A stretch of 44,404 bases of DNA, from NCBI GenBank assembly GCA_025965975.1, contig JAOPVX010000062.1, positions 1-44,404 on the forward strand. Reading direction: 5' to 3'. The position numbers and the translations under genes were made by a program. Positions 28,214 through 36,188 of the stretch are shown piece after piece. Position 1 is the first letter of the stretch, and each line of letters begins with the position of its first letter. The notes under the pieces were generated by a model. It did not search any database and was not told where the DNA came from. It saw only the letters and a program-made list of their open reading frames with translations. The DNA is from Mycobacterium sp. (GTDB lineage: Bacteria; Actinomycetota; Actinomycetes; Mycobacteriales; Mycobacteriaceae).

Positions 28214-28337
28214 TGGAGCCTCCAAACAACTGGGACTTGTGGTCCATGTTACGTACGAATTCCCCTGCTTTACATGTGGAAATGCGCGCGCCCCGTACCT
28301 GGCGCGGTTACCACCATTGGCGTCGTTCGGCAGTTGG

Positions 28338-28363
28338 TGAACCGGGGGTGGTGCTACCTCGTT
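28338..28363 (+). promoter_or_regulatory. SigL-type promoter of the sigma factor gene
   Basis: TGAACC at 28338-28343, a 16-base spacer, then CGTT at 28360-28363. This agrees with the promoter described for M. tuberculosis SigL (TGAACC ... CGT). The start codon lies 61 bases downstream. It implies that the sigma factor activates its own gene. Confidence 0.7.
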
Positions 28364-28424
28364 GCAGTAGTTAGGGTCCGGGGGCGGTGCCAGCTGCGGA
28401 GGGTGTTTCCGGCGGGAGCGCGGG

Positions 28425-28940
28425 ATGGACGGTCCGGATTCCGGCGAATTGCGGTGGCTCTACGACGAGCATGCGGCCGCGTTATATCGGTATGCGCTAC
28501 TGCTCACCGGTAATCGCGCCCGCGCGGCGAACGTCGTGCAGGAAACTGTGCTGCGCGCCAGACGAGACCCTGAAGTCGCCGATTCCCCTGCGCCATCGGC
28601 GCGGGCGTGGCTTTTCACCGTCGCCCGCAACATGATCATCGACGATCAGCGCAGCGCGGGGTTCTCGAACGAAATCGGCGTTCCCGACCCGGGGTGGCCT
28701 GATCGCGCCGCGCCAGAGGAAGTCAACGCCGCCGTGGACCGGCTGCTGCTCGGCGACGCGTTGGCGCAGTTGCCCGCTGACGATCGCGCCGTGGTTCACC
28801 GCGCGTACTACCGGGGCTGCACAACAGCCCAGATCGCGGCCGACCTGCACATTGCGGAAGGGACGGTGAAGTCGAGGCTGCACGACGCCGTTCGGGCGTT
28901 ATGGTTGCAGTTGCGTGAAATGGGGGTCGCGCTGCAGTGA
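28425..28940 (+). CDS. sigL: ECF sigma factor, SigL-like
   Basis: RNA polymerase sigma factor of 171 residues with only regions 2 and 4. Region 2 (about 8-80) shows LRWLYDEHAAALYRYALLLTGNRARAANVVQETVLRAR and ARAWLFTVARNMIIDDQRS. Region 4 (about 105-160) shows DALAQLPADDRAVVHRAYYRGCTTAQIAADLHIAEGTVKSRLHDAVRAL. The match to M. tuberculosis SigL is close along its length, including the sequence ARAWLFTVARNMIID. Its own promoter has the SigL consensus. Unlike M. tuberculosis, where the anti-sigma gene follows in the same operon, the anti-sigma gene here is on the other strand and faces it, 22 bases away. SigL controls envelope and secreted-protein genes in M. tuberculosis, which fits the neighbours. 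Confidence 0.9.
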   Translation: MDGPDSGELRWLYDEHAAALYRYALLLTGNRARAANVVQETVLRARRDPEVADSPAPSARAWLFTVARNMIIDDQRSAGFSNEIGVPDPGWPDRAAPEEVNAAVDRLLLGDALAQLPADDRAVVHRAYYRGCTTAQIAADLHIAEGTVKSRLHDAVRALWLQLREMGVALQ

Positions 28941-28962
28941 CACTCCGCGTTCTGCCCGCCGG

Positions 28963-29706
28963 TCACAGGGTGCGCTGCAGGAGGACGTTTCCGCTGTCAG
29001 CGGAAACGATTTGTACTGTGGCGATCTGGTCGATCGGCATCGACGTGCTCCCGCCGGGAGTTGCGCGCGCGCCCTTGACCGCCATCCAGGTGGCCAGTCG
29101 GTCGTGATTGCCGTCGCGGCCGACCACCACCATCGCCAGCCTGCCCGGGGGTAGGTCTCCGCCGGGAACGGAGGTGCCCGCTTCCGCCGGGTAGGTGCAA
29201 TTCATGTCGATTTGGGTTCCCCAGTCCTGGCCGGTCACCGTCACCGTTGCGGTCAGCTCGGTAGCCGCCACCGACGTCATCGTCAGCGCGGACGCGTCGG
29301 CCCGCGTCGGGACCGAAGCCGGTGCACCCTGATGGAATGGCACACCGGCCAGCACACCGATCACCATCACGACGGCCGCCGCAGCGGCCACCGCCCACGT
29401 CGCCAAGCGCGAATTGCGGCGCCGCCGGCTCACGGTGGCCAACAGCGATGTCAACACGCGCGGGCTGAGCTCGTCCGATCCGCCGGCATCGATCGCAGCG
29501 ACCTCGTCGACGCTCAGTTGCCCAAGAAGCGCAGGCATGCCGCTGAGCTCGTCGACGGATTGACGGCACGACTGGCAGCCGAGCAGGTGCACCTCATACT
29601 CGCGCCGGTCGACGTCGGACAACGAGCCCAGCACGTAGGCTGCGTCCCACAGCGCGTACTCGTCGCTGTGGCCCACGAGCGACAGCGCGCGCGGTGAAAC
29701 CTCCAT
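28963..29706 (-). CDS. rslA: Zinc-type transmembrane anti-sigma factor, RslA-like
   Basis: Protein of 247 residues. The N-terminal cytosolic anti-sigma domain (about 1-85) has EYALWDAAYVLGSLSDVDRREYEVHLLGCQSCRQ with the HxxxCxxC zinc motif at His40, Cys44 and Cys47, as in RslA, where oxidation releases zinc and the sigma factor. One membrane helix follows (LATWAVAAAAAVVMVIGVLAGV) and an extracellular domain of about 115 residues (ATELTATVTVTGQDWGTQIDMNCTYPAEAG) as in other mycobacterial RslA proteins. It faces the sigma gene convergently, but its own promoter has the same SigL-type elements, so feedback inhibition is preserved. The ATG at 29706 has a GGGAGG ribosome site. Confidence 0.9.
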   Translation of the reverse strand: MEVSPRALSLVGHSDEYALWDAAYVLGSLSDVDRREYEVHLLGCQSCRQSVDELSGMPALLGQLSVDEVAAIDAGGSDELSPRVLTSLLATVSRRRRNSRLATWAVAAAAAVVMVIGVLAGVPFHQGAPASVPTRADASALTMTSVAATELTATVTVTGQDWGTQIDMNCTYPAEAGTSVPGGDLPPGRLAMVVVGRDGNHDRLATWMAVKGARATPGGSTSMPIDQIATVQIVSADSGNVLLQRTL

Positions 29707-29724
29707 TGCGACCTCCCACCCGGT

Positions 29725-29752
29725 AACACGACGTAGAACCGTCTGTAGTTCA
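29725..29752 (-). promoter_or_regulatory. SigL-type promoter of the anti-sigma factor gene
   Basis: On the minus strand TGAACT (29752-29747), a 16-base spacer, then CGTGTT (29730-29725). The -10 box matches the SigL form CGTGTT and the -35 box differs by one base from TGAACC. The start codon is 18 bases past the -10 box, leaving a short leader with the GGGAGG ribosome site. Confidence 0.65.
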
Positions 29753-30289
29753 CCGCCGCCGCTCCAAAAATACCTGGTCAGCGTTCCAGAAAGCCCATCG
29801 CCCTTGCCCTCATCAGCGCGACCGTCCTGGTGATCGCCCTACTTCGCGCTCGCCGCGGTGCGCGGATGGGCGCTCCTGAGCCGACATCGAGCATCGACGA
29901 CAGGCGGCAATCGGTTGGCACACGATCTGGCGGTAGTGTACAGCTAATGCAAAGCAGATAAATTCATTTGCTTACGGCCTGCATGCCGGCGACCGAGCAA
30001 ACTGTACTAAGTCAGTTTCCGCGGCAGGCGGCGCTGCCAGCGGACGCAAGTGGCCGGCGAGGGCGGGCGAACCGTTGGTCGTTGCGGCACATCCGGTGGC
30101 AGCAAGTCCTGTACCCACAGCTGCGAGTGCGGCTGCTAGCGGTCGCATTGTGCGACGATGAACCGCGGACCGATTTGCCGCGGTTTGCCGGTACCCTACA
30201 AAGCCGGGACAGAGCGTTCAGTGTGGGAAGCAGACAAGCTCCCGCACTCGTCCGTCTGCGGACCGAATTTTCAACGCGCAGCATTAGCG
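29753..30289. other. 537-base gap without a recognisable gene
   Basis: The gap between the anti-sigma gene and the end of ptsH holds no supported coding sequence: open frames on both strands are arginine- and serine-rich shadows. It contains a small AT-rich inverted repeat (GCAAA at 29949-29953 with TTTGC at 29967-29971) in a locally AT-rich patch (GATAAATTCATTTG), which might be a regulatory or terminator remnant. Confidence 0.5.
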
Positions 30290-34460: not shown

Positions 34461-36188
34461 ATGACCGCTTCATCCCCGCCTACGTCACGTCCGCAGGACA
34501 GCGCCTCCGCCGGCTACCCGGCCGGCACGGTGTTGCGGGGTGTCCCGGTGGTCGCCGGTGTCCAGTACGCACCGGTGATCCGGCCTGCGCGGCTGCCCGT
34601 CGTCGACGGCGGCACGTCTGACGCCTCGATCGACGAGGCCGACCGCCCCGCCGAGGCCGCACGGTTCGGGGCCGCAGCCACCGCTGTGGCCAGCCGGTTG
34701 CGGGACCGCGCCGCGCACGCGACGGGCGCGGCGTCGGAGGTTCTTGCCGCCACCGCCACGCTGGCCCAGGACCGTGCCTGGCTGGGGGCCGCCGAGAAGC
34801 GCATCAAGGAAGGCACACCGGCGGCGCGGGCGGTGGCTGCGGCGGTCGAGCAATTCGTCGCCATGTTCACGCAACTCGGCGGCCTGATGGCCGAACGCGT
34901 CACCGATCTGCAGGACATCCGCGACCGTGTCATCGCCGAACTCAGCGGTCTGCCCGAGCCCGGCGTTCCGCTGCCCGATAGTCCGTCGATCCTGTGCGCC
35001 GAGGATCTCGCGCCCGCCGACACCGCGGGTCTGGATCCGCAACTCGTTGTCGCCCTGGCCACCACGTTGGGCGGGCCGACCAGCCACACCGCGATCATCG
35101 CCCGCCAACTCGGCATCCCATGCGTCGTCGCCGTCGCGGGGCTGGATCCCGTCGCGGCAGGAACGATGGTGCTGGTTGACGGCACCCTTGGCACCGTCAC
35201 GGTGTCGCCGGATCACGCCACCGCTGGCGAGGCCGTAGCCACAGCTCAGCGCGAGGCTGAACGGGCAGCGCACTGGTCCGGTCCCGGCGCCACCGCCGAC
35301 GGGCACGCGGTGTCGATCCTCGTCAACGTCCAAGACGGTGCCGCGGCCCGCTCCGCCCGCGAGACGCCCGCCGAGGGCGTCGGGCTGTTCCGCACCGAAC
35401 TGTGCTTTCTCAATCGCGAAACCGAGCCCAGCGTCGAGGAGCAGGCAGACATCTATGCGCAAGTGCTTGAGGCGTTTTCCGGCCGCAAGGTGGTGATCCG
35501 GACGCTGGACGCCGGGTCTGACAAGCCACTGAAATTCGTCGGCCATGCGGAGGAGGCCAACCCCGCGCTTGGTGTGCGAGGCATCCGCATCGCCGTTGGC
35601 AACCCGGCACTGCTCGACCGGCAGCTAACGGCCATCGCCGGCGCGGCGCAGCGCACGGGCACCGCGCCGTGGGTGATGGCGCCGATGATCGCCACCGCGG
35701 AGGAAGCCGAAAGCTTTGCCGCGCAGGCGCGCTCGCATGGCCTCACCGCGGGGGTGATGATCGAGGTGCCCGCGGCCGCGCTGCTGGCCGACCGGATTCT
35801 CCAACACGTCGACTTCCTGTCGATCGGCACCAACGATCTGGCTCAGTACACGATGGCCGCCGACCGCATGTCGGCCGAGCTCGCGACGCTGACCGATCCG
35901 TGGCAGCCTGCCGTGCTGGCATTGGTGGCGATGGCGGTGCGGGCGGGCGCCGCGGCGGGCAAGCCCGTAGGAGTGTGTGGCGAGGCGGCAGCCGACCCGT
36001 TGCTGGCGTGCGTGCTTACCGGTCTTGGCGTGACATCGCTGTCCGCGGCGGCCGCCGCGATCCAGGGCGTGGGTGCCAAGCTCGCCCAGGTCACGCTGCA
36101 GCAGTGCGTGCGCGCGGCCGACGCCGTGCTTGACGCGGCAACCGCGGCAGACGCCCGCGCGGTAGCGCTTTCCGCACTTGGGAATTAA
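34461..36188 (+). CDS. ptsI: PTS enzyme I (phosphoenolpyruvate-protein phosphotransferase)
   Basis: Cytoplasmic enzyme (575 aa) that transfers phosphate from phosphoenolpyruvate to HPr. The N-terminal phosphohistidine domain holds His209 in LGGPTSHTAIIARQLGIPCVV. The C-terminal PEP-binding barrel shows EGVGLFRTELCFLNRETEPS, DAGSDKPLKFV, GVRGIRIAVGNPALLDRQL, FLSIGTNDLAQYTMAADR and GVCGEAAADP. The N-terminus carries about 20 extra residues rich in Ser and Pro. The ATG at 34461 fits the promoter just upstream, which implies a leaderless mRNA; the open frame extends far upstream only as a shadow of fruR. The stop codon is inside a 24-bp palindrome. Confidence 0.94.
   Translation: MTASSPPTSRPQDSASAGYPAGTVLRGVPVVAGVQYAPVIRPARLPVVDGGTSDASIDEADRPAEAARFGAAATAVASRLRDRAAHATGAASEVLAATATLAQDRAWLGAAEKRIKEGTPAARAVAAAVEQFVAMFTQLGGLMAERVTDLQDIRDRVIAELSGLPEPGVPLPDSPSILCAEDLAPADTAGLDPQLVVALATTLGGPTSHTAIIARQLGIPCVVAVAGLDPVAAGTMVLVDGTLGTVTVSPDHATAGEAVATAQREAERAAHWSGPGATADGHAVSILVNVQDGAAARSARETPAEGVGLFRTELCFLNRETEPSVEEQADIYAQVLEAFSGRKVVIRTLDAGSDKPLKFVGHAEEANPALGVRGIRIAVGNPALLDRQLTAIAGAAQRTGTAPWVMAPMIATAEEAESFAAQARSHGLTAGVMIEVPAAALLADRILQHVDFLSIGTNDLAQYTMAADRMSAELATLTDPWQPAVLALVAMAVRAGAAAGKPVGVCGEAAADPLLACVLTGLGVTSLSAAAAAIQGVGAKLAQVTLQQCVRAADAVLDAATAADARAVALSALGN

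Follow-up and report, generated by a model that had tools for sequence, protein, structure and literature searches.

Organization of the locus

The window, by which we mean the whole analysed stretch of 44,404 nucleotides from a Mycobacterium sp. genome, contains a sigma factor gene and an anti-sigma factor gene which face each other, each preceded by a promoter-like site of the SigL type. The features of the locus are as follows:

28336..29780, block common to the window and contig C15 of the related genome G394; BLAST homology stops near both promoters
28338..28362, plus strand, promoter-like site of the sigma gene (TGAACC-N16-CGT, then TGC)
28425-28940, plus strand, sigma gene (171 aa), SigL-family ECF sigma factor, paralogue of the map-linked sigL
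28941-28962, gap of 22 bases between both stop codons
28963-29706, minus strand, anti-sigma gene (247 aa), RslA-like zinc anti-sigma factor
28986..29008, plus strand, hairpin whose stem pairs perfectly over 10 bp, 46 bases beyond the stop codon of the sigma gene and within the 3′ end of the anti-sigma gene
29707..29724, minus strand, anti-sigma leader with the ribosome-binding site GGGAGG
29725..29752, minus strand, promoter-like site of the anti-sigma gene (TGAACT-N16-CGTGTT)

A sequence-only reading of this DNA had described a convergent pair 22 bases apart with a SigL-type site with N16 spacer upstream of each gene; both genes, their strands, the gap and the two sites (28338-28362 on the plus strand and 29752-29725 on the minus strand) were confirmed in the sequence. 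The families it had named, a SigL-type sigma factor and an RslA-type anti-sigma factor, are borne out by the profile and structure matches given below. The co-directional adjacent genes that define an operon of the sigL-rslA type are not found here, as the window genes converge.

Identity and evolution of the two proteins

The window sigma factor scores 209.3 bits against the NCBIfam model NF007227 (PRK09645), which we take to be the SigL model, and passes its cut-off of 202. The Pfam domains Sigma70_r2 and Sigma70_r4_2 are detected, so regions 2 and 4 are both there, and the match to the solved M. tuberculosis SigL (PDB 6dv9) has E=2.9e-60. In the alignment the segments LFTVARNMIID and IAEGTVKSRLH are common to both proteins.

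Ten SigL-like stretches, the one of the window included, are found in the window genome at E below 1e-18. Three of them cover region 4 only (contigs C367, C6, and C49; loci L008, L009, and L010) and are possibly remnants of further paralogues. On contig C400, a sigL copy with a TGAACC-N16-CGTATC site of its own lies 3′ of genes recognized by eye as adk-like and map, and contig C437 starts inside a nearly identical sigma gene that is followed by rslA in the usual order. Probably, C400 and C437 hold one sigL/rslA locus split between contigs. Because the map-linked sigL and rslA exist separately, the comparison with sigL/rslA drawn in the sequence-only reading was one between paralogues; sigL/rslA itself is not convergent in this genome. 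That the window pair represents a rearranged sigL/rslA orthologue is ruled out by the map-linked copy elsewhere in the genome. The window pair is a fast-evolving paralogous SigL/RslA pair.

Neither context nor residues are those of a SigL orthologue. The window sigma gene has no linkage to map or adk and no co-directional rslA on its 3′ side and was filed as a paralogue, and its product is changed at 21 of the 89 columns that are invariant in 25 map-linked SigL proteins. At the same columns 26 and 29 changes are counted for the copies on contigs C53 and C23 of G394, and 24, 21, 6, and 2 changes for the operon paralogues on contigs C233, C47, C307, and C299 of the window genome. The C299 paralogue (L003/L052) has no SigL-type site and is followed by a 98-aa anti-sigma frame that keeps the zinc motif and stops short of where the membrane stretch would lie.

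The window sigma gene is under purifying selection. Pairwise counts gave an omega of 0.235 against G394 C53 and of 0.260 against G394 C23, and for the window anti-sigma gene an omega of 0.304 against G394 C15; the map-linked pair of the same two genomes has 0.058 (sigL) and 0.127 (rslA). Fisher tests, which were carried out on rounded counts with the site numbers of the window genes used for both pairs, place the value of 0.235 below 1 (p=6e-8) and indicate that the window genes evolve faster than the map-linked sigL/rslA (p=0.003 for the sigma gene and p=0.001 for the anti-sigma gene). In the trees, a stem of 0.54 leads to the cluster formed by the window sigma factor with G394 C53 and C23 (100/100); the window anti-sigma factor clusters with G394 C15 (100/83). 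Judged by its sequence, the window sigma factor may be losing its function or changing its specificity.

The anti-sigma factor matches Pfam zf-HC2 (23.3 bits, cut-off 22.2), carries the HxxxCxxC zinc motif typical of RslA at residues 40-47 (H40, C44, C47) and has, by hydropathy, one hydrophobic stretch near residues 100-125. Residues 11-94 match RslA in the SigL region 4/RslA complex (PDB 3hug_B) with E=4.6e-23, and the score against the NCBIfam anti-sigma equivalog NF052375 is 49.9 bits, below the cut-off of 100. For M. tuberculosis RslA, His25 is reported as the fourth zinc ligand (PMC2877774). Its counterpart in the window protein is Asp15; an Asp at this place was also seen, by eye, in L152 and in the C437 copy of the window genome.

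Copies of the block in G394 and G287

The block is common to three loci of G394, on the contigs C15, C53, and C23. Its left edge lies between 28310 and 28336 in the three copies and its right edge is visible in C15 only, where the block sits in unrelated surroundings. C15 contains the full-length anti-sigma gene with its site, the best anti-sigma match in G394 (69% identical), and a facing sigma frame of 78 codons without the stretch aligned to about residues 26-112, that is, most of region 2. On C53, a sigma gene 84% identical to that of the window has an intact site and is faced by the last 29 anti-sigma codons as the only match. The sigma gene of C23 (79% identical) also has its site intact, reads TTG where the other copies have the ATG start, and is accompanied by no anti-sigma match. 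A full-length sigma gene together with a full-length anti-sigma gene is present in none of the three copies. Thus, the block was copied or moved and the copies were broken in complementary ways.

On contig C11 of G287, the order is a leader homologous to that of the window (76%, E=0.001), a sigma remnant homologous to the sigma codons 58-77 (76%, E=2.5e-5), and the anti-sigma gene (72% over 757 bases). A further sigma gene on this contig faces the anti-sigma gene from 5.7 kb away, and the 861 bases preceding it contain no TGAAC-N17-CGT.

Gene order among relatives

An RslA-like match at E <= 1e-15 was obtained in 215 of 248 genomes, and the loci of the 30 best were studied. The first set comprises 32 RslA-like loci, 29 from other genomes and three from the window genome, the window locus being excluded. 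In 31 of these the sigma gene lies upstream on the same strand; the exception, L049, has only a partial sigma stretch, also on the same strand. A further set of 16 loci contains 14 co-directional pairs, one convergent pair (L136, G394), and one locus (L137, G287) with no sigma match within 1.5 kb. Overall, the genes are co-directional in 45 of 48 RslA-like loci other than that of the window. At E <= 1e-64 a match is present in 80 of 396 genomes, the window genome included. Beyond the window, the convergent block was found in G394 only among the 396 genomes searched, with the orientation read at the 30 loci retrieved for the best matches, so that a more diverged convergent pair could escape. 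The gene order of sigL/rslA homologues, which the sequence-only reading had taken to be altered here, is thus co-directional at nearly all loci examined, and the convergent order was found in a single relative.

With the anti-sigma protein as query, named genomes yielded two loci only, both co-directional. The search for an empty site, anchored on the neighbouring L,D-transpeptidase gene, returned 30 loci, and in the flanks of about 1.5 kb of the 29 loci from other genomes no sigma, anti-sigma, or PTS match was found. The titles and abstract openings consulted for convergent sigma/anti-sigma genes, for orphan or duplicated mycobacterial anti-sigma genes, and for TetR with RslA, mostly without subscription papers, do not mention the arrangement.

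SigL-type promoter-like sites

Both sites were named by what we take to be the SigL-type promoter consensus; a literature search for this SigL consensus with M. tuberculosis, mostly without subscription papers, found no source. Concerning the possibility, raised in the sequence-only reading, that the motif occurs at chance frequency, the window count alone is not significant (two TGAACY-N16-CGT sites vs 0.78 expected; at least two in 20 of 100 shuffles); the whole genome has 160 sites vs 61 for the reversed control, and it is the placement of the two window sites that is unusual. At the genome density of about 1.1e-5 per strand base, the chance of such a placement is about 1e-3 per given 100-base upstream stretch and about 1e-6 for both genes, uncorrected for the earlier reader's choice. 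A chance motif is ruled out by placement and conservation, despite a window count without significance. The extended motif TGAACY-N16-CGTRTY has 12 genome sites vs three for the control; the 12 include the anti-sigma site but not the sigma site, whose −10 element CGTTGC misses CGTRTY.

The motif TGAAC-N16-CGT upstream of its own gene, by which we would group a sigma factor with SigL, is present at 28338-28362. Within 200 bases upstream of the SigL paralogues on C299, C307, C47, and C233 of the same genome there is no SigL-type site, and such a site is therefore not automatic for sigL paralogues. G394 C53 and C23, the two copies with a full-length sigma gene, have an intact sigma site; in C15, with its shortened sigma gene, this site has decayed to CGAACC...CGA. 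C15, the sole G394 copy with a full-length anti-sigma gene, has kept the anti-sigma site intact, and the TGAACT and CGT of the anti-sigma site are conserved in both G394 C15 and G287 C11. With a SigL-type site on each gene, co-induction of the window sigma and anti-sigma genes from these sites is likely.

Extended SigL-type sites also occur on the contigs C404 (L182), C436 (L183), and C321 (L179) of the window genome, where frames start 9, 10, and 34 bases past the CGT; these frames have chalcone-synthase-like, UbiA, and cupredoxin domains, respectively, and are candidate regulon members. In the loci examined, 24 distinct cases of a SigL-type site just 3′ of rslA were found, in relatives and on C437 (L051/L185, position 1182) of the window genome, where the site at 1182 precedes a gene for a thiamine-pyrophosphate enzyme.

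The leader of the anti-sigma gene

In most sigma genes of co-directional loci, GGAGG and then the start codon come at an almost constant spacing after the SigL-type site. The start codon of the anti-sigma gene lies 46 bases from the first −35 base, near the distance found in many sigma-gene leaders. A leader rule (CGT-N7..14-GGAGG-N3..9-RTG), drawn up post hoc after the leaders had been viewed, is fitted by 43 of the 45 distinct sigma leaders that do not belong to the window clade and by all three anti-sigma leaders (window, G394 C15, and G287 C11). In the controls, it is fitted by none of the 24 distinct SigL-type sites downstream of rslA and by one of 29 other sites of the window genome, which were drawn from the first 30 of the 160 listed. 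The sigma leaders of the window clade are longer and none of the three distinct ones fits. With the promoter removed, a leader profile past the CGT, which is a short profile, gives 1.6 bits for the window anti-sigma leader, a score surpassed by about 9 of 3000 random 35-mers of the window, and so does not set this leader apart from random window DNA. The right leaders are no closer to the left leaders than to other sigL leaders, and the local score between left and right leaders was reached in 14 of 2000 shuffles; an inverted duplication of one leader is not supported by these comparisons.

The anti-sigma promoter is probably an inherited sigma-gene promoter. Given the fit of the leader and the gene order on G287 C11, the loss of a sigma gene between the leader and the anti-sigma gene would be the simplest account. 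This bears on the claim of the sequence-only reading that co-regulation has been rebuilt through duplicate promoters: the SigL-type site on each gene speaks for co-regulation, and the anti-sigma leader, which resembles a sigma-gene leader left behind by the loss of the sigma gene, speaks against the rebuilding.

Anti-sigma genes without a sigma gene

At least two RslA-like matches are present in 64 other genomes among the 248 searched. From 13 of these 64 multi-copy genomes and from G345, nineteen loci were examined, comprising second copies and some of their partners. Five of them are co-directional with a full-length sigma gene. In eight (G043, G004, G053, G024, G093, G183, G151, and G345), the aligned start is preceded, at a distance of 765-767 bases, by a SigL-type site, and between the site and the anti-sigma gene there is an open frame and no sigma match; the frame belongs to the TetR family by Pfam in one genome (L190) and by eye in the rest. 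The loci with a TetR-like frame are L189, L190, L191, L194, L195, L197, L200, and L207. In three loci (G239, G080, and G200) no sigma match was found and the SigL-type site is 205-237 bases upstream, and two (G145, L201; G008, L203) have a short sigma frame with region 4 only before the anti-sigma gene and no SigL-type site within 1 kb. These two region-4-only frames, compared over 66 codons, have pS 0.46 and pN 0.233 (p=0.0026), with Pfam support in L203. The remaining stretch is partly N. A sigma match on the opposite strand was found in none of the 19 loci.

The order SigL-type site, decayed sigma remnant, anti-sigma gene is found in G132 and G241. Two plasmids, NZ_CP092424.2 of M. lentiflavum (L187) and NZ_CP025547.1 of M. 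paragordonae (L188), carry RslA-like genes with upstream SigL-type sites; their sigma sequence is diverged or fragmentary, and one has a shortened anti-sigma match. These loci speak for anti-sigma genes being retained behind SigL-type sites in the absence of their sigma gene.

The hairpin past the sigma gene

Among 54 distinct RslA-like 3′ ends, the 10-bp stem of the window is the longest, and the next longest (8 bp) belongs to G394 C53, where a full-length sigma gene is likewise part of a convergent copy. A 10-bp stem was reached in 4 of 5000 shuffles. The T (U) tract of the hairpin is weak, and the scan gave three terminator-like sites vs a shuffle mean of 0.9 (sd 1.0), which is about two sd above. 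The hairpin may limit read-through from the sigma gene as a terminator, or it may be due to chance. A second perfect 10-bp stem-loop is present in the window at 36185.

Origin and possible function of the pair

In the reading that we consider most likely, and hold with moderate confidence, the two genes of the pair are halves of SigL-type operons that have each retained an autoregulatory promoter, an arrangement that would provide matched induction and negative feedback. Co-directional SigL-type operons would have been rearranged into convergent halves. The sigma half would have kept promoter, leader, and sigma gene, and the anti-sigma half would carry the promoter, leader, and start region of a sigma gene directly before the anti-sigma coding sequence, the intervening sigma sequence having been lost, so that both promoters would be inherited autoregulatory promoters of the SigL type. 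A SigL-type holoenzyme, containing either the window sigma factor or the map-linked SigL, would transcribe both genes together, and the membrane-anchored zinc anti-sigma factor would hold the window sigma factor, perhaps also SigL, until an oxidative or envelope signal is received. Upon induction more activator and more brake would be made at once, with their ratio set by two promoters and not by one transcript. The convergence would be a by-product of the rearrangement. Taken this way, the window pair seems to be a known switch in rearranged form and not a new one.

It is also conceivable, though in our estimation rather unlikely, that the anti-sigma factor now in effect works on its own, as a brake that is driven by SigL and acts on the map-linked SigL, with the neighbouring sigma gene as a decaying passenger. 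Such a brake would explain why G394 C15 keeps the anti-sigma gene and its site next to a sigma frame that lacks most of region 2, it would agree with the recurrence of sigma-less RslA paralogues with SigL-type sites (the eight genomes with TetR-like frames, G132, G241, G239, G080, and G200), and it would fit the long stem of the sigma clade (0.54) next to the shorter anti-sigma branches. Nevertheless, the window sigma gene is full length and under purifying selection, and G394 holds two full-length sigma copies with intact sites. The sequence-only reading had raised the possibility of a switch made sharper by transcripts that collide or by antisense control, for which convergence would be selected, and the gap of 22 bases as well as the inward direction of both promoter-like sites are compatible with this. 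We regard it as improbable, as the convergent block was found in one relative only, at the 30 loci whose orientation was read, and none of the three G394 copies keeps both genes full length; rather, the full-length genes of G394 lie at three separate loci with their promoters kept, and the hairpin just past the sigma stop codon could end the sigma transcript early. An assembly error could produce a convergent order in a fragmented genome of 449 contigs with several SigL paralogues, but it is very improbable here, since the pair is enclosed in a contig of 44 kb and the same inverted order is found on G394 C15 and C53.

Returning to the two operon halves, at the window and at several related loci the tie between sigma and anti-sigma gene has been cut and the promoter type has been kept. 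These loci are natural material on how far the balance of sigma and anti-sigma factor depends on operon structure and on whether a spare anti-sigma factor can also target sigma paralogues. As a tentative extension, which we consider possible at best, the repeated uncoupling of RslA in mycobacteria might have given rise to a trans-acting layer, in which SigL-induced shared brakes and region-4 decoys act across the SigL paralogues of one cell. This idea derives from the leader fusion, from the TetR-like, decayed-sigma, and plasmid copies, and from the region-4-only sigma frames coupled to anti-sigma genes in G145 and G008.

Comparison with known systems

In a published account, sigL and rslA of M. 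tuberculosis are described as an operon (PMC13002591). The window pair is like this operon and its map-linked orthologues in the protein families, the HxxxCxxC motif, and the SigL-type promoter. It differs from them in that its genes converge, lie off map, have one SigL-type site each, and evolve faster; in addition, the window genome keeps the map-linked copy as well. Paralogy of sigL is already known, as the annotation of M. mucogenicum contains a pair of sigL copies, one of them linked to an anti-sigma gene (PMC6917791). The second sigL of M. mucogenicum resembles the window gene in its paralogy, whereas a convergent order and a promoter analysis do not appear in the accessible portion of that account. 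According to the same portion, rscA, the putative anti-SigC gene, lies apart from sigC in M. tuberculosis (PMC6917791); like the window anti-sigma gene it is outside the transcript of the sigma gene, but it belongs to a different family and convergence is not part of the description given there. The sigma-less RslA paralogues of G132, G241, and the eight genomes with TetR-like frames likewise follow a SigL-type site and lack a full-length sigma gene in the same direction; they differ in having a TetR-like frame or a decayed sigma gene between the site and the anti-sigma gene and, in the stretches examined, no convergent sigma gene.
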